Below the pieces are notes generated by a model. The model was not told where the DNA came from, ran no database searches, and worked only from the letters and a program-made list of their open reading frames with translations. Position numbers and translations under genes: made by a program. Positions 20,391 to 29,040 of a DNA stretch of 64,000 nt are shown here, piece after piece. The stretch's first letter is position 1, and each line of letters begins with the position of its first letter. Source of the DNA: Alphaproteobacteria bacterium (GTDB lineage: Bacteria; Pseudomonadota; Alphaproteobacteria; Sphingomonadales; Sphingomonadaceae). The DNA is taken from positions 1 to 64,000 of the forward strand of contig QBLU01000013.1 of the NCBI GenBank assembly GCA_003241875.1, written 5' to 3'.

Positions 20391-20633
20391 CAGCAGCTCC
20401 TGCGCAGAAAGCGGGAATGGTAGCGACTTTGTGCGGGTCGCGCGCCTGTCGCAAATGGCAAGCCGGGACCCTAAAATGGCTGTGGCGGGGCGCGTTTTCC
20501 GCTGCCTCCGCCACATCCTCCCCTCAGCTGTCACGCTGTTGTCATCGCTCTGCGCCTGCGCTAGGCGCACGTCAATCGACGCGGTCAAACATTCGTGTCG
20601 AAATGTCGTGCTTTCGCTTGCCCCGTCGGTCAT

Positions 20634-20653
20634 ATTGTAAAAATCTTGACAAT
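20634..20653. promoter_or_regulatory. AT-rich dyad ATTGT-N10-ACAAT before the XRE/IrrE regulator
   Basis: This is a rare AT-rich patch in the divergent gap, with 5-base arms at 20634-20638 and 20649-20653. It overlaps the proposed TTG start of the regulator. It could be an autoregulatory operator of the regulator, or an AT-rich promoter region (it contains TTGACA at 20647-20652). Confidence 0.35.
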
Positions 20654-22073
20654 CCAGCCCGCCAACGATCCGCCACAGCGCGACAGCAACGGCCACAAGC
20701 TGTTTGCCGGCGCGCGTATACGGCGGCTGCGCATCGCGCGCGGGTTGACCCAGACCCGGATGGCGTCGGACCTCGGCGTTTCGATTTCCTATCTCAACCT
20801 CATCGAGCGCGACCAGCGGCCGCTTTCCGCCGCGTTCCTGCTCAAGCTCGCGAGCAGCTATGATCTCGACCTGAAAAGCCTGACCGGCGACGATGGCAAT
20901 GCCGTCGCCGACGAGCTGGTGCGCGCCTTTGGCGACCCGCGGCTCGCCGGGATCGACGTGTCGCGCGCCGAACTGCGCGACCTCGCCGCCCGCTCGCCCG
21001 GCATCGCCCAGGCGCTGCTGAGGCTGCACCAGTCGGCGCCGGCGGGCCCGGCCGAGGCGCCGCCGCCGGGACCGCTCGATACCGTCATCCGGATGATCGA
21101 CACGGCCGGCAATTATTTTCACGACCTCGACATTGCCGCCGAAACGCTTTCCGACGACCTGCGGCTGTCGGGTCCGGACCTCAACGCCGCGGTTGTCGAG
21201 CGACTGCGCGCCCGCCACGCCATCACCGTCGTCGCGATGCCTGCCGATGTGCTGTCGAACGCCCTGCGCCGGCTCAACCTTCATGGCCGCCAGCTGCAAT
21301 TGTCGGAAAGCCTCGACGCCGCCTCGCGCGGTTTCGCCGCCGCCGTCCAGCTGGCGCTGATCGAGCTGAAGCCGGCGATCGAGGCGACCATCACCGCCGC
21401 CGGCATCGACGACCCGCAGCACCGCCAGGCCGCGACAGTCCATCTCGGCAAATACGCCGCCGGCGCGCTGATGATGCCCTATGGTCGCTTCCTCGCCGCC
21501 TGCGAGGCCACCGGCTATGATGTCGAGCTGCTGCAAGCGCGTTTCGGCCGCGGGCTGGAGCAGGTCGCGCACCGCATGGCGACGCTGGCGCGGCCGGGCG
21601 CGCGCGGCGTGCCGTTCTTCTTCCTCCGGGTCGATCGCGCCGGCGTCATCTCCAAATCCTTTGCGCCGGGCCCGTCGCCGATTCCGGCGACGCCGATCGG
21701 TGGCGGCGGCTGCGCGCTCTGGTCGCTGCACGCCGCCTTCGATCGCCCCGGCGACGTGCGCCGCCAGCTCGTCGAGATGGAGGACGGCAGCCGGTTCCTG
21801 ACCATCGCCCGCACCGTCCGGCCGGTCGCGACCTTCTGGGGCTCCCCGCGCGCCGAATTCGCCATCGGCCTCGGCTGCGACGCCCGCCATGCCGCGCAAC
21901 TGGCCTGGGCCGCGGGCCTCGACCTCGGCCGGCCGGCGACACCGATCGGCCCCGGCTGCGCCGCCTGTCATCGCGCCTCTTGCCGTCAGCGCGGTTTGCC
22001 GCCAGCAGGGGCGCGTCTGACCTTTGACGAGCGCCAGCGCGGGCTGGTGCCGTTCCGTTTCACCGAAGATTGA
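20646..22073 (+). CDS. XRE-type regulator with IrrE/ImmA domain (short-chain fatty acyl regulator family)
   Basis: A transcription factor of the ScfR/RamB-like group, known elsewhere to control propionate, acetate or glyoxylate-cycle genes in response to acyl-CoA. The N-terminal helix-turn-helix is clear (RRLRIARGLTQTRMASDLG, then SISYLNLIERDQRPLS). A central IrrE-like domain follows, though its metal motif is degenerate (HLGKYAAGALMMPYGRF, no HExxH). The C-terminal DUF2083 region ends with GCAACHRASCRQRG, a C-x2-C-x4-C cluster. The malate synthase gene starts 10 bases downstream, supporting control of C2 metabolism. The start is uncertain: TTG 20646 gives a normal N-terminus; GTG 20595 would add 17 atypical residues; neither has a clear ribosome site. 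Confidence 0.9.
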   Translation: MTIQPANDPPQRDSNGHKLFAGARIRRLRIARGLTQTRMASDLGVSISYLNLIERDQRPLSAAFLLKLASSYDLDLKSLTGDDGNAVADELVRAFGDPRLAGIDVSRAELRDLAARSPGIAQALLRLHQSAPAGPAEAPPPGPLDTVIRMIDTAGNYFHDLDIAAETLSDDLRLSGPDLNAAVVERLRARHAITVVAMPADVLSNALRRLNLHGRQLQLSESLDAASRGFAAAVQLALIELKPAIEATITAAGIDDPQHRQAATVHLGKYAAGALMMPYGRFLAACEATGYDVELLQARFGRGLEQVAHRMATLARPGARGVPFFFLRVDRAGVISKSFAPGPSPIPATPIGGGGCALWSLHAAFDRPGDVRRQLVEMEDGSRFLTIARTVRPVATFWGSPRAEFAIGLGCDARHAAQLAWAAGLDLGRPATPIGPGCAACHRASCRQRGLPPAGARLTFDERQRGLVPFRFTED

Positions 22074-22083
22074 AGGAAATCGC

Positions 22084-23670
22084 ATGGCCGACAACGGCAT
22101 TCAGATCACCGGCGAGATGCGCACCGGCTACGACACGATCCTGACCGAAGCCGCGCTGCACTTCGTTGCGCATCTCCACCGCATGTACGAGCCGACGCGC
22201 CGGGCGCTGCTGACGGCGCGCGAATCGCACCAGGGCTGGGCCGACGCCGGCAACGGCATCGATTTTGCCGCCGAGACATCGGCGGTGCGCGACGACCCGA
22301 CCTGGCAGGTCCGCCCCGCCCCGCACGACCTGACCGACCGGCGTGTCGAAATCACCGGGCCATGCGACCGCAAGATGGTCATCAACGCGCTCAATTCCGG
22401 CGCGCAGTGCTTCATGGCCTGCCTGGAGGACGCCTCGGCGCCGACCTGGCAGGTGATGATGGACGGCCAAGTCAATCTGCGCGACGCCGCCGCCGGCACG
22501 ATCAGCCTGGAAGACAAAGGCAAAAGCTACAGCCTCAACGACAAGACCGCGACGCTGATCGCCCGGCCGCGCGGCTGGCATCTCGACGAAGCGCACATGA
22601 TCGTCGATGGCGAGCGCGTCTGCGGGCCGATCTTCGATTTCGGGCTATATTTCTTCCATAATGCCAAAGCGCTGATCGCCCGCGGCTCGGGGCCCTATTT
22701 CTACCTGCCCAAGATGGAGCATTATCTCGAGGCGCGGTTGTGGAACAACATCTTCACCACCGCCCAGTCGATCATGGGCCTGCCGCTCGGCACCATCCGT
22801 GCCACCGTGCTCATCGAAACGCTGCCCGGCGCGTTCATGGCCGACGAGATCCTGTATGAACTGCGGGATCACATCACCGCGCTCAACTGCGGCCGCTGGG
22901 ATTACATCTTCAGCTACATCAAGACCTTCCGCAACGACCCGAGCAAGGTACTGCCCGATCGCGCCGCCGTCACCATGACGGTGCCGTTCATGGCGAAATA
23001 TGCCGCCCATGTCGTCCGCACCTGCCACCGCCGCGGCGCCCATGCGATGGGCGGCATGTCGGCGTTCATCCCGGTCAAGGACGACGAGGCCGCCAACGAG
23101 CGCGCCTTTGCCGCCGTCCGCGCCGACAAGGAGCGCGAGGCCGGCATCGGTCATGACGGTACCTGGGTCGCGCACCCGGGCCTCGTCGGCATCGCGCGGG
23201 AGGTTTTCGATCGCCTGATGCCCGGCCCTAACCAGCTGTTGGTGATCCCCGAAGGCACCGCGACCGCCGCGGACCTGACGACGCCGCCGCCGGGGCCGAA
23301 GACGCTCGCCGGGCTGACCAACAACATCAACGTCGGCATCGGTTATATCGCCGCCTGGCTGCGCGGCCAGGGCGCCGTGCCGCTGCACAATCTGATGGAG
23401 GACGCCGCCACCGCCGAGATCAGCCGCACGCAATTGTGGCAATGGCGCAAGGCCGGCGTGACGCTCGACGGCGGCGAGGCGGTCGACGCGGCGCTCGTCA
23501 CCAGGGTGACCGACGAGCAGCTGGGGGTATGGCGGGACCAGGTCGGCGACAATTTCTTCGCTGCCGGCAAATACACGGAGGCCGCCGACGTGTTCCGCAC
23601 GCTGGTGCTGTCTGACCGGCTGGAAAACTTCCTGACCGTGCCGGCCTATGAGCATTATTTCGCCCGCTAG
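22084..23670 (+). CDS. aceB: Malate synthase A
   Basis: Condenses glyoxylate with acetyl-CoA to malate, the second step of the glyoxylate bypass. The 528-residue protein is full length for isoform A, and contains the signature PYFYLPKMEHYLEARLWNN, the acidic active-site region CFMACLEDASAPTW, the segment TVLIETLPGAFMADEILYEL, and the C-terminal catalytic region PLHNLMEDAATAEISRTQLW. AGGAAA precedes the ATG at 22084; the 20 codons upstream in the same frame belong to the end of the regulator gene region. Coupling to the XRE/IrrE regulator suggests control by acetate or acyl-CoA supply. Isocitrate lyase is not in this window. Confidence 0.97.
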   Translation: MADNGIQITGEMRTGYDTILTEAALHFVAHLHRMYEPTRRALLTARESHQGWADAGNGIDFAAETSAVRDDPTWQVRPAPHDLTDRRVEITGPCDRKMVINALNSGAQCFMACLEDASAPTWQVMMDGQVNLRDAAAGTISLEDKGKSYSLNDKTATLIARPRGWHLDEAHMIVDGERVCGPIFDFGLYFFHNAKALIARGSGPYFYLPKMEHYLEARLWNNIFTTAQSIMGLPLGTIRATVLIETLPGAFMADEILYELRDHITALNCGRWDYIFSYIKTFRNDPSKVLPDRAAVTMTVPFMAKYAAHVVRTCHRRGAHAMGGMSAFIPVKDDEAANERAFAAVRADKEREAGIGHDGTWVAHPGLVGIAREVFDRLMPGPNQLLVIPEGTATAADLTTPPPGPKTLAGLTNNINVGIGYIAAWLRGQGAVPLHNLMEDAATAEISRTQLWQWRKAGVTLDGGEAVDAALVTRVTDEQLGVWRDQVGDNFFAAGKYTEAADVFRTLVLSDRLENFLTVPAYEHYFAR

Positions 23671-23731: not shown

Positions 23732-25534
23732 ATGCATCGCCGCCAGTTCCTGAAATCCACGGCGCTGGTCGGCGCCACGGCCGCGGTGCCCCAGGCGGTC
23801 TGGGCCGCGACCGCCGAGGATGCGAAGCTGAGTGTGCTGTTCGATGCGTTCTTCAACGAAGGCGTCGATGAAAGCCCGCAGCAGGCCTCGTCGCTGGGCC
23901 TCGACAAGGGGGCCCGCGCCGGGCTGAAGTCCCGGCTCAACGACTATTCGGCGGCCGGCAAGGCGCAACGACTGGTGCGGGTCAAGGATCGCCTGGCGCG
24001 GTTGCACGGCATCGGTCGCGCGGCGCTGTCGCCCAAGGCGGCGCTAGATTACGACATCGTCGATTACGACCTGTCGCGCTCGGTGGCGTCGGAAACCCGC
24101 TTCAGCTTCGGATCGGCGCGGGGCAATTTCCAGCCCTATGTCATTACCCAGCAGCAGGGCCCCTATCGCGACATTCCCGACTTTCTCGATTCGACGCACA
24201 AGATCGTTACCGCCGACGATGCCGAGGCCTATCTTGCCCGGCTGTCGGCGTTCCCCAAGGCGCTCGACGACAGCCTCGATCGCCAGATGGCCGATGCGGC
24301 GCGCGGTATCTTCGCGCCGGATTTCGCGCTCGACATCACGTTGCAGCAGCTGGCGGCGCTGCGAAACCAGCCGGCCGACCGGACCGTGCTGGCCGAATCC
24401 ATCGTCCGCCGCGCCAAGGCCGCCGGCCTGACCGCCGATTACGGCCCACGCGCCGTCGCCATTGTCGACACCCAGGTGTTCCCGGCGCTCGATCGCCACG
24501 TCGCCGCGATCACGGCGCTGCGTGCCAAGGCCAGCAGCGAGGCCGGCGTGTGGCGCCTGCCCGACGGCGACGCCTATTACGCCGCCGGCGTCAAAAGCTC
24601 GACGACCACCGAACTGACGCCCGACGAGGTCCACCGCCTCGGCCTCGCCCAGGTGGCGGAGATCAGCGGACGGCTCGATGTCATGCTGAAGGCACAGGGG
24701 CTGACCAAGGGCACCGTCGGCGAACGGCTGACGGCGCTCAACAACCGCGCCGACCAGGTGTTCCCCAATACCGATGCCGGCCGCACGGCGCTGATCGCCC
24801 AGCTCAATGCGCAGATCAAGGACGCCTATCCGCGCCTGCCCCAACTGTTCAACACGCTGCCCAAGGCAATCGTCGAGGTCCGCCGCGTGCCGGCGTTCAT
24901 CCAGGATGGCGCCGCCAACGGCTATTACCAGTCCGCCGCCACCGACGGCTCGCGCCCCGCGGCCTTCTACATCAACCTCAAGGACACGGCCGAATGGCCG
25001 AAATACGGCCTGGCGAGCCTGACCTATCACGAGGCCGTGCCCGGCCATCACATGCAGGTCAGCATCGCGCAGGAATCGACCGACATTCCGATGCTGCGCC
25101 GGCGCGGCGGCTATTCGGCCTATAGCGAGGGCTGGGCGCTGTATGCCGAACAGGTTGCCGACGAGCTCGGCGTCTATGACCAGGATCCGCTCGGACGCAT
25201 CGGCTATCTGCAAAGCTTCCTGTTCCGCGCCGCGCGGCTCGTCTGCGATACCGGCATCCATTACAAGCGCTGGGGCCGCGACAAGGCGACGGACTATCTG
25301 GTCGGCGCCACCGGCTTTCCGCGCGGCCGTTCGCAACGCGAGGTCGAGCGCTATTGCGTCGGCCCGGCCCAGGCGCTCAGCTACAAGGTCGGCCATACGC
25401 AATGGGCAAAGCTGCGCGATGCGGTGCGGGCCAAGCAGGGCGCCGCCTTCGATCCGCGCCAGTTCCACGAGGTGCTGCGACAGGGGGCGATGCCGCTCGT
25501 CATCCTGGAGCGCGTGGTGATGGCGCGGGCATAG
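23732..25534 (+). CDS. DUF885 family protein (putative exported metallopeptidase)
   Basis: A 600-residue protein with a twin-arginine-like signal (MHRRQFLKSTALVGATAAV), so it is probably exported folded. The DUF885 hallmark HEAVPGHH is at residues 433-440, resembling a zinc-binding HExxxxHH arrangement; a later acidic motif YSEGWALYAEQ is also typical. Family members are believed to be metallopeptidases or related hydrolases, but reactions are mostly unproven. Five bases after its stop begins a DUF969-DUF979-DUF2891 set, so it is likely the first gene of that operon: a periplasmic hydrolase feeding a transporter. The N-terminus lacks a lipobox. Confidence 0.93.
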   Translation: MHRRQFLKSTALVGATAAVPQAVWAATAEDAKLSVLFDAFFNEGVDESPQQASSLGLDKGARAGLKSRLNDYSAAGKAQRLVRVKDRLARLHGIGRAALSPKAALDYDIVDYDLSRSVASETRFSFGSARGNFQPYVITQQQGPYRDIPDFLDSTHKIVTADDAEAYLARLSAFPKALDDSLDRQMADAARGIFAPDFALDITLQQLAALRNQPADRTVLAESIVRRAKAAGLTADYGPRAVAIVDTQVFPALDRHVAAITALRAKASSEAGVWRLPDGDAYYAAGVKSSTTTELTPDEVHRLGLAQVAEISGRLDVMLKAQGLTKGTVGERLTALNNRADQVFPNTDAGRTALIAQLNAQIKDAYPRLPQLFNTLPKAIVEVRRVPAFIQDGAANGYYQSAATDGSRPAAFYINLKDTAEWPKYGLASLTYHEAVPGHHMQVSIAQESTDIPMLRRRGGYSAYSEGWALYAEQVADELGVYDQDPLGRIGYLQSFLFRAARLVCDTGIHYKRWGRDKATDYLVGATGFPRGRSQREVERYCVGPAQALSYKVGHTQWAKLRDAVRAKQGAAFDPRQFHEVLRQGAMPLVILERVVMARA

Positions 25535-25539
25535 CCGCC

Positions 25540-26199
25540 ATGTGGCCGCTGATCGGCATCGTCGTCATCGTCATCGGCTTTGCGCTGCGGTTCAATCCGC
25601 TGCTGGTGGTGGTTGTGGCGGCGCTGGCCAGCGGCATCGCGGCGGGGATGGATCCGCTGTCGGTGGTCGCGACGTTCGGCAAGGCGTTCAATACCAATCG
25701 CTATGTCAGCGCACCGTGGATCATTTTGCCGGTCATCGGCATGCTCGAACGTGCCGGCCTGCGCGAGCGGGCGCGTGACCTGATCGCCGCCACCGCGGCG
25801 GCGACCATCGGGCGCATCCTCATCGCCTATCTGCTGCTGCGCCAGGCGACATCGGCGCTGGGGCTGACGGCGATTGCCGGCCACGCCCAGACGGTGCGCC
25901 CGCTGCTGGCACCGATGGCCGAGGCCGCCGCCGAACGCGCCGACCCGGCGATCACCGATGCCGGCCGGCAGAAGATCCGCGCCATGGCCGCCGCCACCGA
26001 CAATGTCGGCATGTTCTTTGGCGAGGACATCTTTCTCGCCGTCGCCTCGATCCTGCTGATCAAGGGCTTCCTCGAAGCCAACGGCATCGTCGTCGCGCCG
26101 CTGCAGCTTTCAGTCTGGGCGATCCCCACCGCTGTCGCGGCCTTTGTCGTCCATGGCGCCCGGCTGTGGCGAATGGACCGCCGGCTGGCGCGGCGATGA
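25540..26199 (+). CDS. DUF969 family membrane protein (putative transporter subunit)
   Basis: A 219-residue protein with about five hydrophobic segments starting directly at the N-terminus (MWPLIGIVVIVIGFALRF). The conserved segments FNTNRYVSAPWIILPVIGMLERAGLRERA and ATDNVGMFFGEDIFLAVASILL mark DUF969. DUF969 and DUF979 nearly always occur as a pair and have been linked to 5-oxoproline uptake in genomes where they sit with pxpABC; those genes are not here. The stop overlaps the DUF979 start (ATGA), so the two are likely made in equal amounts as one complex. Confidence 0.9.
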   Translation: MWPLIGIVVIVIGFALRFNPLLVVVVAALASGIAAGMDPLSVVATFGKAFNTNRYVSAPWIILPVIGMLERAGLRERARDLIAATAAATIGRILIAYLLLRQATSALGLTAIAGHAQTVRPLLAPMAEAAAERADPAITDAGRQKIRAMAAATDNVGMFFGEDIFLAVASILLIKGFLEANGIVVAPLQLSVWAIPTAVAAFVVHGARLWRMDRRLARR

Positions 26200-27146
26200 T
26201 CGGGCTGCCGTTCCTCTACACGATCGCCGGCGTGCTGTTCGCCGGCTGGGCGGCGTTGACGCTGGCCGATCGAACCCACCCCAAGCGCCTCGGCAGTGCC
26301 GCCTTCTGGGGGCTGCTGGCGTTGAGCTTTCTCGCCGGCGACATGCTCGGCGACCTCGGCAACGGCGTCCTCGTTCTGGCGCTGGTCGCCATCGCCGGCA
26401 CCGGCAACCTGGCGCGGGGCAGCGTGCCGACGAGCAGCGTGGCGGAGCGCGAGGCCAGCGCGACGCGGCATCGCAACCGGCTGTTCCTGCCGGCGCTGGT
26501 GGTGCCGGCGGTGGCATTGATCGGCACCTTCTTGTTCAAATATGTGACACTGGCGGGCGCGCCGCTGGTCGACCCGAAACAGGTGACGCTGGTCAGCCTC
26601 GGCTTCGGCATGATCATCGCCGTGGTCCTGCTCATCGCCTGGCTGCGGCCGCCGGCGGCGGCCCCCTTCCACGAAGGTCGCCGACTGGCCGAAGCGATCG
26701 GCTGGCCGATCATCCTGCCGCAGATGCTGGCCAGCCTCGGCGCGGTGTTCGCTGCCGCCGGGGTCGGGCAGATCGTCGGCGGGCTCGCCGGGCAGGTCAT
26801 CCCCGATGGCTCGGTGTTCCTCGCCGTGCTGGTGTTCACGCTGGGCATGGCGGGGTTCACGATGATCATGGGCAATGCCTTTGCCGCCTTTCCGGTGATG
26901 ATGGCGGCGGTCGGCCTGCCGGTGCTGATCGGCACGCTGCACGGCAACCCGGTCATCGTCGCCGCCGTCGGCATGCTGTCGGGCTTTTGCGGCACGTTGC
27001 TGACGCCGATGGCGGCCAACTTCAACATCGTGCCGGCGGTGCTGCTCGAGCTCGATGACCGTAACGCCGTCATCCGGGCGCAGGTGGCGACCGCCATCTC
27101 GCTGTTCGTCTTCAACACGCTACTGATCTGGGGATTTGCCTTTTGA
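26196..27146 (+). CDS. DUF979 family membrane protein (putative transporter subunit)
   Basis: A 316-residue membrane protein with eight or nine hydrophobic segments; DUF979 features include FAGWAALTLADRTHPKRLGSA-like and LAGDMLGDLGNGVLVLALV near the N-terminus, and AGFTMIMGNAFAAFPVMMAAVGLP and GFCGTLLTPMAANFNIVPA near the C-terminus. ATG 26196, overlapping the DUF969 stop, is preferred over 26166 because coupling is the rule here. It presumably forms a secondary transporter with DUF969. The last base of its stop codon is the first base of the DUF2891 start (TGATG). Confidence 0.9.
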   Translation: MIGLPFLYTIAGVLFAGWAALTLADRTHPKRLGSAAFWGLLALSFLAGDMLGDLGNGVLVLALVAIAGTGNLARGSVPTSSVAEREASATRHRNRLFLPALVVPAVALIGTFLFKYVTLAGAPLVDPKQVTLVSLGFGMIIAVVLLIAWLRPPAAAPFHEGRRLAEAIGWPIILPQMLASLGAVFAAAGVGQIVGGLAGQVIPDGSVFLAVLVFTLGMAGFTMIMGNAFAAFPVMMAAVGLPVLIGTLHGNPVIVAAVGMLSGFCGTLLTPMAANFNIVPAVLLELDDRNAVIRAQVATAISLFVFNTLLIWGFAF

Positions 27147-28132
27147 TGCTCGATGAAGCGCTCGCCGGCCGCATGGCGCGCATCGCGCTCGGGCATGTGA
27201 CTCGCGAATATCCGCACAAGCTCGACCATGTGCTCGATGGCCCCGCCGACGCCCGCACCCCGCGCGACCTGCACCCGATCTTCTTCGGCAGTTTCGACTG
27301 GCACAGCTGCGTCCATGGCTGGTGGCTGCTGCTGCGGCTGCTGCGCCGCTTTCCGGGCCATGCCGCCGCCGCCGACGCCCGGCGGCTGGCGGAGACGCTG
27401 TTCACCCCCGGCAATGTCGCCGCCGAATGCGCCTATCTCGACCGGCCGTCGTCGCGCGGCTTTGAACGGCCTTATGGCTGGGCCTGGTTGCTGGCACTTC
27501 ATGACGAAGCGTCGCAGCACGACGATGCCACCCTCGAACAGGTGCTGGCGCCGCTGGCCCAGGCCTTTGCCGCGCGCTTCCACGCCTTCCTGCCGCTGCA
27601 GACCTATCCGATCCGCACCGGCGCCCATGGCAATTCGGCATTCGCGCTGGCGCTGCTTGCCGGCTGGGCACGGCGCCACGATCCGGCGCTGCTGGCGCTG
27701 GCGACGGCCCGCGCGCGGGACTGGTTCGGCACCGATTCCGACGCCCAGGCGTGGGAGCCCGATGGCGACGCGTTCCTGTCACCGACACTGGTCGAGGCCC
27801 TGGCGATGGCGCGGTTGCTGCCGGCGGCGGCGTTTTGCGACTGGTTCGCCGCGTTCCTGCCCGACGCGGCAGACGGTCGGCCGGCGAGCCTGTTCACACC
27901 CGCGACCGTGACCGATCGCAGCGACGGCAAGATCGCCCATCTCGACGGCCTCAACCTCAGCCGCGCCTGGTGCTGGCGGATCATCGCGGCGACGCTGGGT
28001 GGGCCGGTCGCGCCGGCTCTGCGGGAGGCCGCGGCGACCCATCTCCAGGCCGGCCTGCCGCACATTGCCGGCGACTATGCCGGTGAACACTGGCTGGCGA
28101 GCTTTGCATTGCTGGCGCTCGACGACGCCTGA
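27146..28132 (+). CDS. DUF2891 family protein, last gene of the DUF885-969-979 unit
   Basis: A 328-residue soluble protein of DUF2891, predicted mostly helical. Conserved parts seen are HPIFFGSFDWHSCVHGWW near residues 43-60, SRGFERPYGWAWLLAL, RTGAHGNSAFALALL, and the C-terminal EHWLASFALLALD. The many conserved His, Trp, Asp and Arg residues and the helical-toroid look suggest an enzyme acting on a small polar or sugar-like substrate, but no reaction is known to me. There is no signal peptide, so it would act in the cytoplasm on what DUF969/979 imports. Its start shares one base with the DUF979 stop. Confidence 0.9.
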   Translation: MLDEALAGRMARIALGHVTREYPHKLDHVLDGPADARTPRDLHPIFFGSFDWHSCVHGWWLLLRLLRRFPGHAAAADARRLAETLFTPGNVAAECAYLDRPSSRGFERPYGWAWLLALHDEASQHDDATLEQVLAPLAQAFAARFHAFLPLQTYPIRTGAHGNSAFALALLAGWARRHDPALLALATARARDWFGTDSDAQAWEPDGDAFLSPTLVEALAMARLLPAAAFCDWFAAFLPDAADGRPASLFTPATVTDRSDGKIAHLDGLNLSRAWCWRIIAATLGGPVAPALREAAATHLQAGLPHIAGDYAGEHWLASFALLALDDA

Positions 28133-28326: not shown

Positions 28327-29040
28327 TTGCACTCGGGTCCGGCGACGAAAAGCGAGATCGAAGCGGCCAATGCCCGCATGTTCGCGGACAGCTGGATCAG
28401 TGCCTCGCCCCCGGAATTTCGTCATGCCCTGCTCGCCCGCTGCCAATGGCGCCGCCACGAGGCCGGCGCGATCCTGTCCCACATCGGCACCGAGCAGAGC
28501 ACGGTCTATGGCCTTGCATCGGGAACGATGGCCTTTGCCACGCCGCACGCCGGCGCCGAACTGCGCTTGTCGCACATCATGCACAGCGGCGATTGGGTCG
28601 GCGTCGGGCCGGCACTGACCGGGCGCCAGCGCACCGGGCAGATCAGCGTCCGGGCGCCGAGCCTGGTGGCGCATCTGTCCGCCAGCGCCATCGATGCCAT
28701 TGTGGCGATCGAGCCATCATGGTGGCGGGAATTCGGCCGCCTGGGGGTCATCTATGGCGATATCGCCTCCATCATCGTCGGCGACCTGATGATCGCCGAC
28801 AATCGCCAGCGCTGTGCCGCGACGCTGTTGCGGCTGGCCGGCATCCGCCACCGCAACCGCGACGATCTACCCGCCGTGGTGCAGGTCGGCCAGGATGAGC
28901 TCGGCGCCATCGCCAACCTGTCGCGCAATTCGGTCAACCGCATCCTCGGGTTTCTGGAGGCGCGGGACCTCGTGCGCGTCGGCTACCGCACCATCACCCT
29001 GCCCGATCCGGCCGCGCTGCGTCGGCTGATCGACAGCTAG
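28327..29040 (+). CDS. Crp/Fnr family transcriptional regulator
   Basis: A 237-residue regulator with an N-terminal cyclic-nucleotide-binding-like beta domain (HEAGAILSHIGTEQSTVYGLASGTMAF) and a C-terminal Crp-type helix-turn-helix (VGQDELGAIANLSRNSVNRILGFLEARDLV). The usual cAMP phosphate-binding RxS motif is not evident and no N-terminal Cys cluster is present, so the signal is neither clearly cAMP nor an iron-sulfur cluster. The TTG start at 28327 has AAAGGA 7 bases upstream and is preferred over ATG 28378. It lies 194 bases after the DUF2891 gene on the same strand, and might control that operon, but this is inference. Confidence 0.88.
   Translation: MHSGPATKSEIEAANARMFADSWISASPPEFRHALLARCQWRRHEAGAILSHIGTEQSTVYGLASGTMAFATPHAGAELRLSHIMHSGDWVGVGPALTGRQRTGQISVRAPSLVAHLSASAIDAIVAIEPSWWREFGRLGVIYGDIASIIVGDLMIADNRQRCAATLLRLAGIRHRNRDDLPAVVQVGQDELGAIANLSRNSVNRILGFLEARDLVRVGYRTITLPDPAALRRLIDS

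Follow-up and report, generated by a model that had tools for sequence, protein, structure and literature searches.

What do four adjoining genes for proteins with domains of unknown function (DUF), DUF885, DUF969, DUF979 and DUF2891, do together in a member of the Sphingomonadaceae, and which of them belong to one system? The genes lie at positions 23732-28132 of a 64,000-nucleotide stretch of genomic DNA (contig QBLU01000013.1, positions 1 to 64,000, assembly GCA_003241875.1), which as a whole we call the window. An earlier note, made from the letters of the window, had read them as one undescribed scavenging system in which a DUF885 peptidase releases a small product, DUF969 and DUF979 import it and DUF2891 processes it. 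Here we propose that DUF969, DUF979 and DUF2891 form a cassette for the acquisition of 5-oxoproline (pyroglutamate), with a proposed importer, an oxoprolinase and DUF2891 as accessory enzyme, and we put the probability of this reading at roughly 0.7. 5-Oxoproline is the ring-closed waste form of glutamate and forms spontaneously from glutamine and glutamate; to our knowledge, its recovery by bacteria is only now being worked out.

The genes for DUF969 (25540-26199, forward strand, 219 amino acids; PF06149, E 4e-89) and DUF979 (26196-27146, forward strand, 316 amino acids; PF06166, E 5.1e-112), the two halves of the proposed 5-oxoproline importer, are both present and adjoin on the same strand. 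They are followed by the gene for DUF2891 (27146-28132, forward strand, 328 amino acids; PF11199, E 2.2e-124), the proposed cofactor-free enzyme of the 5-oxoproline pathway, which matches the whole of its family model (415 bits against a cut-off of 25; model positions 2-325 of 325). DUF885 ends five bases before DUF969, DUF969 and DUF979 overlap in an ATGA, and DUF979 and DUF2891 overlap by one base (TGATG). This gene order, the twin-arginine translocation (Tat) signal of DUF885 and the three junctions are to the base as the earlier note had described them. Between positions 23500 and 28400 no consensus sigma-70 promoter was found, and three terminator-like sites were seen where 2.2 are expected.

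The linkage of these genes was compared at 113 DUF2891 loci, comprising 26 genomes from the window's phylum (of the 299 genomes in the phylum sample, 27 carry DUF2891, one of them being the window's own, which was left out), 7 plasmid records out of the 55 with a DUF2891 match, and 80 named contigs. Neighbours were sought by tblastn (E <= 1e-8) in flanks that mostly extend over about 8-9 kilobases (kb) per side, some being much shorter. The trio DUF969-DUF979-DUF2891 stands at 65 of the 113 loci (12/26 phylum genomes, 3/7 plasmids and 50/80 named contigs); three further named contigs hold part of it, of which two are truncated, and one is too short to judge. At 36/113 loci (5/26, 1/7 and 30/80), the gene immediately 5' of the trio encodes an oxoprolinase of the fused hydantoinase-A/B type, and on three more contigs this gene lies near the trio on the opposite strand. 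Beyond the trio and the oxoprolinase, clustering of the neighbours gave no family in more than 12 of 114 loci; these minor families were judged by eye, in frames from a simple gene caller that is prone to false calls in GC-rich DNA, and they appeared to be spurious reverse-strand frames, housekeeping genes or lineage-specific genes. A second comparison covered 79 close relatives, 26 of which carry DUF969, the window's genome included. There, the gene directly upstream of DUF969 encodes the fused oxoprolinase in 20 cases, MutS in two, an unidentified protein in three and DUF885 in one, namely the window's genome, and DUF2891 follows at 24 of the 26 loci, the remaining two being cut short. DUF885 was found next to the cassette at none of the 113 DUF2891 loci and at none of the 25 other DUF969 loci among the relatives. 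Since the trio is conserved and DUF885 stands beside DUF969 at no other locus examined, we conclude that the conserved unit is the trio, and that the four-gene arrangement is seen in this genome alone. Conserved linkage in other genomes, on which the earlier note had staked its proposal, thus holds for the trio and fails for DUF885.

The trio also occurs on enterobacterial plasmids. On Klebsiella quasipneumoniae plasmid pKqu-1 (L063, 6281-7985) it looks degraded, with the DUF969 match split over two frames and the DUF979 frame broken by a stop, neither being a listed gene. Klebsiella accounts for 35 of the 55 plasmid records with DUF2891, two of which were read, and a Kosakonia plasmid (L234) carries an annotated run DUF969-DUF979-DUF2891.

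A cassette for 5-oxoproline calls for an oxoprolinase, and here the pxp genes that the earlier note had held to be absent are indeed missing from the window and present in the genome. The sole PxpA found lies on contig C21, the window's contig being C16, in a run pxpA-pxpB-pxpC joined by GTGA and ATGA overlaps, through which the genome with the importer pair also holds a 5-oxoprolinase. The PxpA protein scores above its subfamily cut-off (328.7 against 226 bits); the equivalog cut-offs are not reached by PxpB (126.6 against 145.55) or PxpC (164.7 against 500). No match to the fused OPLAH-type 5-oxoprolinase was obtained in the window's genome (G000) at E <= 1e-100. For the fused enzyme, we applied the same threshold to 32 genomes drawn from the 79 relatives, that is, 24 members of the genus, the window's own included, and eight DUF969-positive members of the family. 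PxpA is present in six of these, the fused enzyme in 25, both in none and neither in one (G320; Fisher, two-sided, p 8e-6). Each of the 26 genomes with DUF969 has one of the two oxoprolinases and lacks the other, the one present being the fused enzyme in 22 and PxpA in four (the window's genome, G304, G319 and G321), and the six genus members without DUF969 include three with the fused enzyme and two with PxpA. The match to the fused enzyme is fragmented or partial in G300, G310, G315 and G317. These counts reveal a clean natural exclusion of two unrelated oxoprolinases within one genus.

The trios nearest to that of the window (L065, L154 and L170) have MutS directly upstream, at the place where the fused gene otherwise sits. 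L065 and L154 probably come from one and the same organism, because their MutS proteins are 100% identical; the genomes of L154 and L170 contain PxpA and lack the fused enzyme. We infer that in this sub-lineage the operon lost the fused oxoprolinase and pxpABC, at another site, took its place, with the importer and DUF2891 being retained, and that in the window's genome the cassette would later have come to sit downstream of malate synthase and DUF885. Another contig of this genome (C72; L057 12100-18396) carries a split HyuA/HyuB pair, which resembles caprolactamase subunits at scores below cut-off and sits among genes for hydroxymethylglutaryl-coenzyme A (CoA) lyase and a CaiB-type CoA-transferase. 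This pair differs in type from the fused enzyme and is unlikely to be the missing oxoprolinase, because it resembles caprolactamase subunits and lies among genes of CoA metabolism; possibly it serves a separate lactam or acyl-CoA pathway.

In the wider sample of 299 phylum genomes, searched with thresholds of E <= 1e-150 for the fused enzyme and E <= 0.001 for PxpA, an oxoprolinase of either type is present in 25 of 26 genomes with DUF969 and in 118 of 273 without it (p 4.5e-8). With respect to DUF2891, the figures are 26/27 and 117/272 (p 2e-8), and on this count DUF2891 was rejected as a substitute for an oxoprolinase; counting by family still gives 13/14 (p 5e-4). Because related genomes are not independent, the p values are too favourable, and the count by family is the safer figure. 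Moreover, 11 of the 12 genomes that carry DUF2891 without DUF969 have an oxoprolinase (p 0.002). Single loci display the same association with different partners. At one (L032), pxpBCA is followed by DUF969-DUF979 and then DUF2891; at another (L049), DUF2891 comes straight after the fused oxoprolinase gene, which it overlaps by four bases, and no transporter gene lies between the two; at a third (L035), the run is DUF2891-Nramp-pxpA-pxpB-pxpC, with DUF2891, which bears a lipoprotein-like leader, in first place. Thus, DUF2891 is tied to the 5-oxoproline pathway and not to one transporter. Caulobacter vibrioides, included as a control genome, gave matches for DUF2891, DUF969 and the hydantoinase/oxoprolinase B family and none for PxpA, and this laboratory organism is suited to testing the place of DUF2891 in the pathway.

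For one organism, Campylobacter jejuni, the link of the trio to 5-oxoproline is already in print. According to the part of that report consulted, a cj0552-4 mutant, affected in DUF969, DUF979 and DUF2891, lost growth on 5-oxoproline, while its glutamine and glutamate phenotype was not significant (PMC12795558). The genes cj0552-cj0553-cj0554 encode the same three families in the same order as in the window, where, in contrast, DUF885 precedes the trio and pxpABC lies on another contig. The system is therefore not undescribed, as the earlier note had supposed, whereas its assignment of DUF969 and DUF979 to import, with DUF2891 as linked partner in a scavenging pathway, is supported. As excerpted here, a study of Clostridioides difficile models DUF969/DUF979 as a heterodimer and assigns DUF979 to an ion-transporter superfamily (PMC11467057). 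The same two sources cite Niehaus et al. 2017 for a DUF969/DUF979 pair adjoining a bacterial 5-oxoprolinase (PMC12795558, PMC11467057); in the window's genome, by contrast, pair and oxoprolinase are on different contigs. A halotolerance gene list, in the section seen, places hydantoinase B/oxoprolinase, DUF969, DUF979 and DUF2891 in the near-consecutive clusters 113 and 115-117, and DUF885 in cluster 12 (PMC10040529). An operon oxoprolinase-DUF969-DUF979-DUF2891 on a Sphingomonas parapaucimobilis plasmid (L059) has the same trio with short overlaps, and its DUF2891 is 62% identical to the window's; it differs in its first gene, a fused oxoprolinase of 1191 residues with HyuA-HyuB Pfam domains, which the window's genome does not have. 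In Corynebacterium glutamicum, growth on 5-oxoproline requires the Nramp-type transporter PxpT, and pxpTABC likewise combines import of 5-oxoproline with ATP-dependent ring opening by PxpABC; it differs in its Nramp-type transporter and GntR regulator PxpR, and the main text nowhere contains the word 'DUF' (PMC13274462). What is new here is the pathway assignment of DUF2891 across types of transporter and oxoprolinase, the apparently exported forms described below and the enzyme swap; we met none of these three points in a search of the open literature, which did not extend to subscription papers, including any on structure 8ieu.

In the mechanism that we propose, DUF969 and DUF979 together would import 5-oxoproline, the substrate and the direction of transport being presumed in this organism. 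An oxoprolinase dependent on adenosine triphosphate (ATP) would then open the ring in the cytoplasm to give L-glutamate; in most relatives this would be the fused OPLAH-type enzyme, encoded by the first gene of the operon, and here PxpABC, encoded on another contig instead. DUF2891 would be an accessory enzyme rather than a transporter subunit, working without ATP or nicotinamide adenine dinucleotide (NAD) and delivering usable L-5-oxoproline by a presumed reaction; as weakly supported guesses, it might interconvert the D and L forms or free 5-oxoproline from a conjugate. The proposal builds on gene order, conservation, co-occurrence and the mutual exclusion of the two oxoprolinases, all of which were observed directly.

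Several observations weigh against it. The trio is absent next to DUF2891 at 44/113 loci (14/26, 4/7 and 26/80), often among unrelated genes, and the named contigs are the best 80 of 587 confirmed matches in a list of limited length, with a bias toward close relatives. In 10 of the 26 DUF969 phylum genomes, PxpA is encoded no more than 4 kb from DUF969, with DUF2891 alongside in one of the ten (G170) and in the genome in three; DUF2891 therefore does not go with every 5-oxoproline locus. One genome with DUF969 (G011) and one with DUF2891 (G285) have neither oxoprolinase, and the match to the fused enzyme in G256 is partial with an internal stop. The fused enzyme is called a 5-oxoprolinase from its architecture, from record annotation and because it and PxpA exclude each other; among solved structures, its closest relative (7hk5) bears the name N-methylhydantoinase, and the fused enzyme stays below the cut-off of every NCBIfam model. 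The L035 transporter, which like PxpT is of the Nramp type, scores above the cut-off of a general metal-transporter model. Finally, the C. jejuni experiment on 5-oxoproline is termed preliminary by its authors and affects the whole trio (PMC12795558, in the part consulted), and our literature search found no measured activity or reaction for DUF2891.

The proposed role of DUF2891 was examined further through its predicted structure. A model built from the window's protein aligned with those of 39 of the 80 named loci (predicted local distance difference test score 89.5) superimposes on the solved C. jejuni protein CJ0554 (8ieu) with a template modelling score of 0.91 at 43% identity, and the two sequences align over residues 10-326 (E 2.7e-82). 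Matches at the level of the fold are (alpha/alpha)6 barrels, with glucuronyl hydrolases and sugar 2-epimerases at Z of about 15: the unsaturated glucuronyl hydrolase 2fv0 (Z 15.2, root-mean-square deviation 4.0, 273 aligned residues), the cellobiose 2-epimerase 5zig (Z 15.1, deviation 4.1, 276 aligned) and, by Foldseek, the GH76 enzyme 4d4b (E 0.036). GH127 enzymes come near the same scores as the glucuronyl hydrolases and GH76, and none stands out among the matches listed, which need not include every family. Unrelated complement domains with an alpha-alpha fold reach a nearly equal Z of about 14, and the fold therefore does not choose a reaction.

An alignment (A1) of 27 of the 34 DUF2891 proteins, which leaves out among others L053, as truncated, and L054 and L055, as divergent, contains 32 invariant columns, including D51, H53, S54, H57, E94, E107, R108, H161, E204, D260, H265, N270, R273 and H315, five of which are histidines (H53, H57, H161, H265 and H315). 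Many invariant residues are at or near the starts of predicted helices, and active sites of (alpha/alpha)6 barrels lie at or near helix starts. This pattern, placed on a predicted structure, is enzyme-like but points to no particular reaction. Six of the 27 members (L031, L035, L036, L037, L043 and L048) begin with a hydrophobic leader, with a hydropathy of 1.68-2.62 against at most 1.48 in the others, this being the sole measure and taken at hand-chosen start codons; PxpA is present in five of the six genomes and absent in G285. Going by these leaders, DUF2891 is apparently exported in some bacteria. As DUF2891 would then work on both sides of the membrane, a need for ATP or NAD is unlikely, and the protein is probably an enzyme that needs no cofactor and is built as an (alpha/alpha)6 barrel. 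Membership of the AGE epimerase family was rejected, the likeness being one of fold class only: profile comparison with 21 AGE-type epimerases gave hhalign probabilities of 0.4% and 0.7%, and PF07221 had no match in a Pfam scan of the 27 members. AGE-type sugar 2-epimerases combine the (alpha/alpha)6 barrel with a catalytic histidine pair. For DUF2891, whose family has a solved structure and for which we found no reaction in the literature, there is now a definite pathway in which its reaction can be sought. More tentatively, and with distinct doubt, we suggest that DUF2891 may found a class of enzymes new to the metabolism of 5-oxoproline. Such an enzyme would be an (alpha/alpha)6 barrel without cofactor, cytoplasmic or exported depending on the bacterium, that makes otherwise unusable forms (D-5-oxoproline or a conjugate) available and is paired with two unrelated transporters and two unrelated, mutually replacing ATP-dependent oxoprolinases.

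Some members of the family occur in other settings. At the Roseomonas-type loci L058 (6970-8990) and L074 (7982-9972), a gene for a P1-family peptidase lies just 5' of DUF2891 in place of the transporter pair, with an overlap of four bases in L058. On a Novosphingobium plasmid (L060, 3328-8984), genes for a TonB-dependent receptor and two MBL-fold hydrolases are followed by DUF2891. The very divergent L054 and L055 (27% identity to the window's protein) stand in other surroundings, and their function could differ.

For the reaction of DUF2891 we offer two guesses, each of them possible and, taken singly, unlikely. If it were a hydrolase acting on a conjugate of 5-oxoproline, for example an adduct of pyroglutamate with a sugar or an acyl group, and set 5-oxoproline free, the importer could take up either the free form or the conjugate, and the apparently exported members would act before uptake. 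The genomic evidence fits this as it fits the cassette, and the best structural matches outside the family include glycoside hydrolases (2fv0 and GH76 4d4b); however, unrelated alpha-alpha folds such as the complement domains score almost equally, and no sugar-utilisation genes were recognised among the recurring neighbours, which were judged by eye from their first residues, with no family search. If, instead, DUF2891 were a racemase or epimerase of D-5-oxoproline and so supplied the L form on which the oxoprolinase works, its reaction would be cofactor-free and make sense in cytoplasm and periplasm alike. The five invariant histidines at or near predicted helix starts and the same-barrel sugar 2-epimerases (5zig) among the top structural matches would suit such an enzyme, whereas the hhalign probabilities below 1% speak against it, and no 5-oxoproline racemase appeared, by title and abstract, among the papers that a literature search listed.

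Two further explanations were considered. A role for DUF2891 in assisting the DUF969/DUF979 transporter, as its chaperone or regulatory partner, would be in keeping with the presence of DUF969 in 15 of 27 DUF2891 genomes against 11 of 272 others (p 1e-11). We nevertheless consider it improbable: 12 of the 27 genomes with DUF2891 lack DUF969, 11 of the 26 with DUF969 lack DUF2891, DUF2891 is apparently exported in some bacteria, and it stands in oxoprolinase runs that lack the pair (L035 and L049). Still more improbable is the earlier four-gene model with DUF885 at its head (23732-25534, forward strand, 600 amino acids; PF05960, E 2.8e-160). This protein matches its metallopeptidase-like family and has an export signal (Pfam TAT_signal, 25.5 bits against a cut-off of 22.7), which places it outside the membrane; it shares the strand of the trio across the five-base gap, and a DUF885 gene appears in the halotolerance list together with the oxoprolinase and the trio, but at a distant cluster number (PMC10040529, section seen). 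The model could even merge with the 5-oxoproline reading if DUF885 freed N-terminal pyroglutamate. Against it, DUF885 is beside DUF969 in no other examined genome, and the window's genome encodes four additional DUF885 paralogues (E <= 1e-100). At the same threshold, 18 of the 24 genus genomes, the window's own included, were searched, and 14 of the 17 genus-mates have DUF885 homologues, none adjoining DUF969. Given this lack of conserved linkage, DUF885 as a peptidase feeding the importer was rejected, and we regard it as a chance neighbour of the cassette in this genome. Its solved relative is 3o0y, and no function for DUF885 was seen in the literature listing.

The same holds for the Crp/Fnr-like gene downstream (28327-29040, forward strand; HTH_Crp_2, E 1.1e-12), which begins after a gap of 194 bases and whose cNMP domain scores slightly below cut-off (27.2 against 27.5 bits). 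The earlier note had considered it a possible regulator of the operon, a role that we rejected, as a Crp/Fnr protein was found at none of the 113 DUF2891 loci; it, too, is a chance neighbour. Upstream, 61 bases before DUF885, ends the gene for malate synthase A (22084-23670, forward strand; TIGR01344, 746 bits against a cut-off of 594.5), which is part of the context only. Directly before it, at 20595-22073, lies a gene for a regulator that combines an ScfRs domain with an IrrE-like M78 domain and is related to RamB at 340 bits, below the model cut-off of 700; a likely guess is that it is an acetate or glyoxylate regulator.

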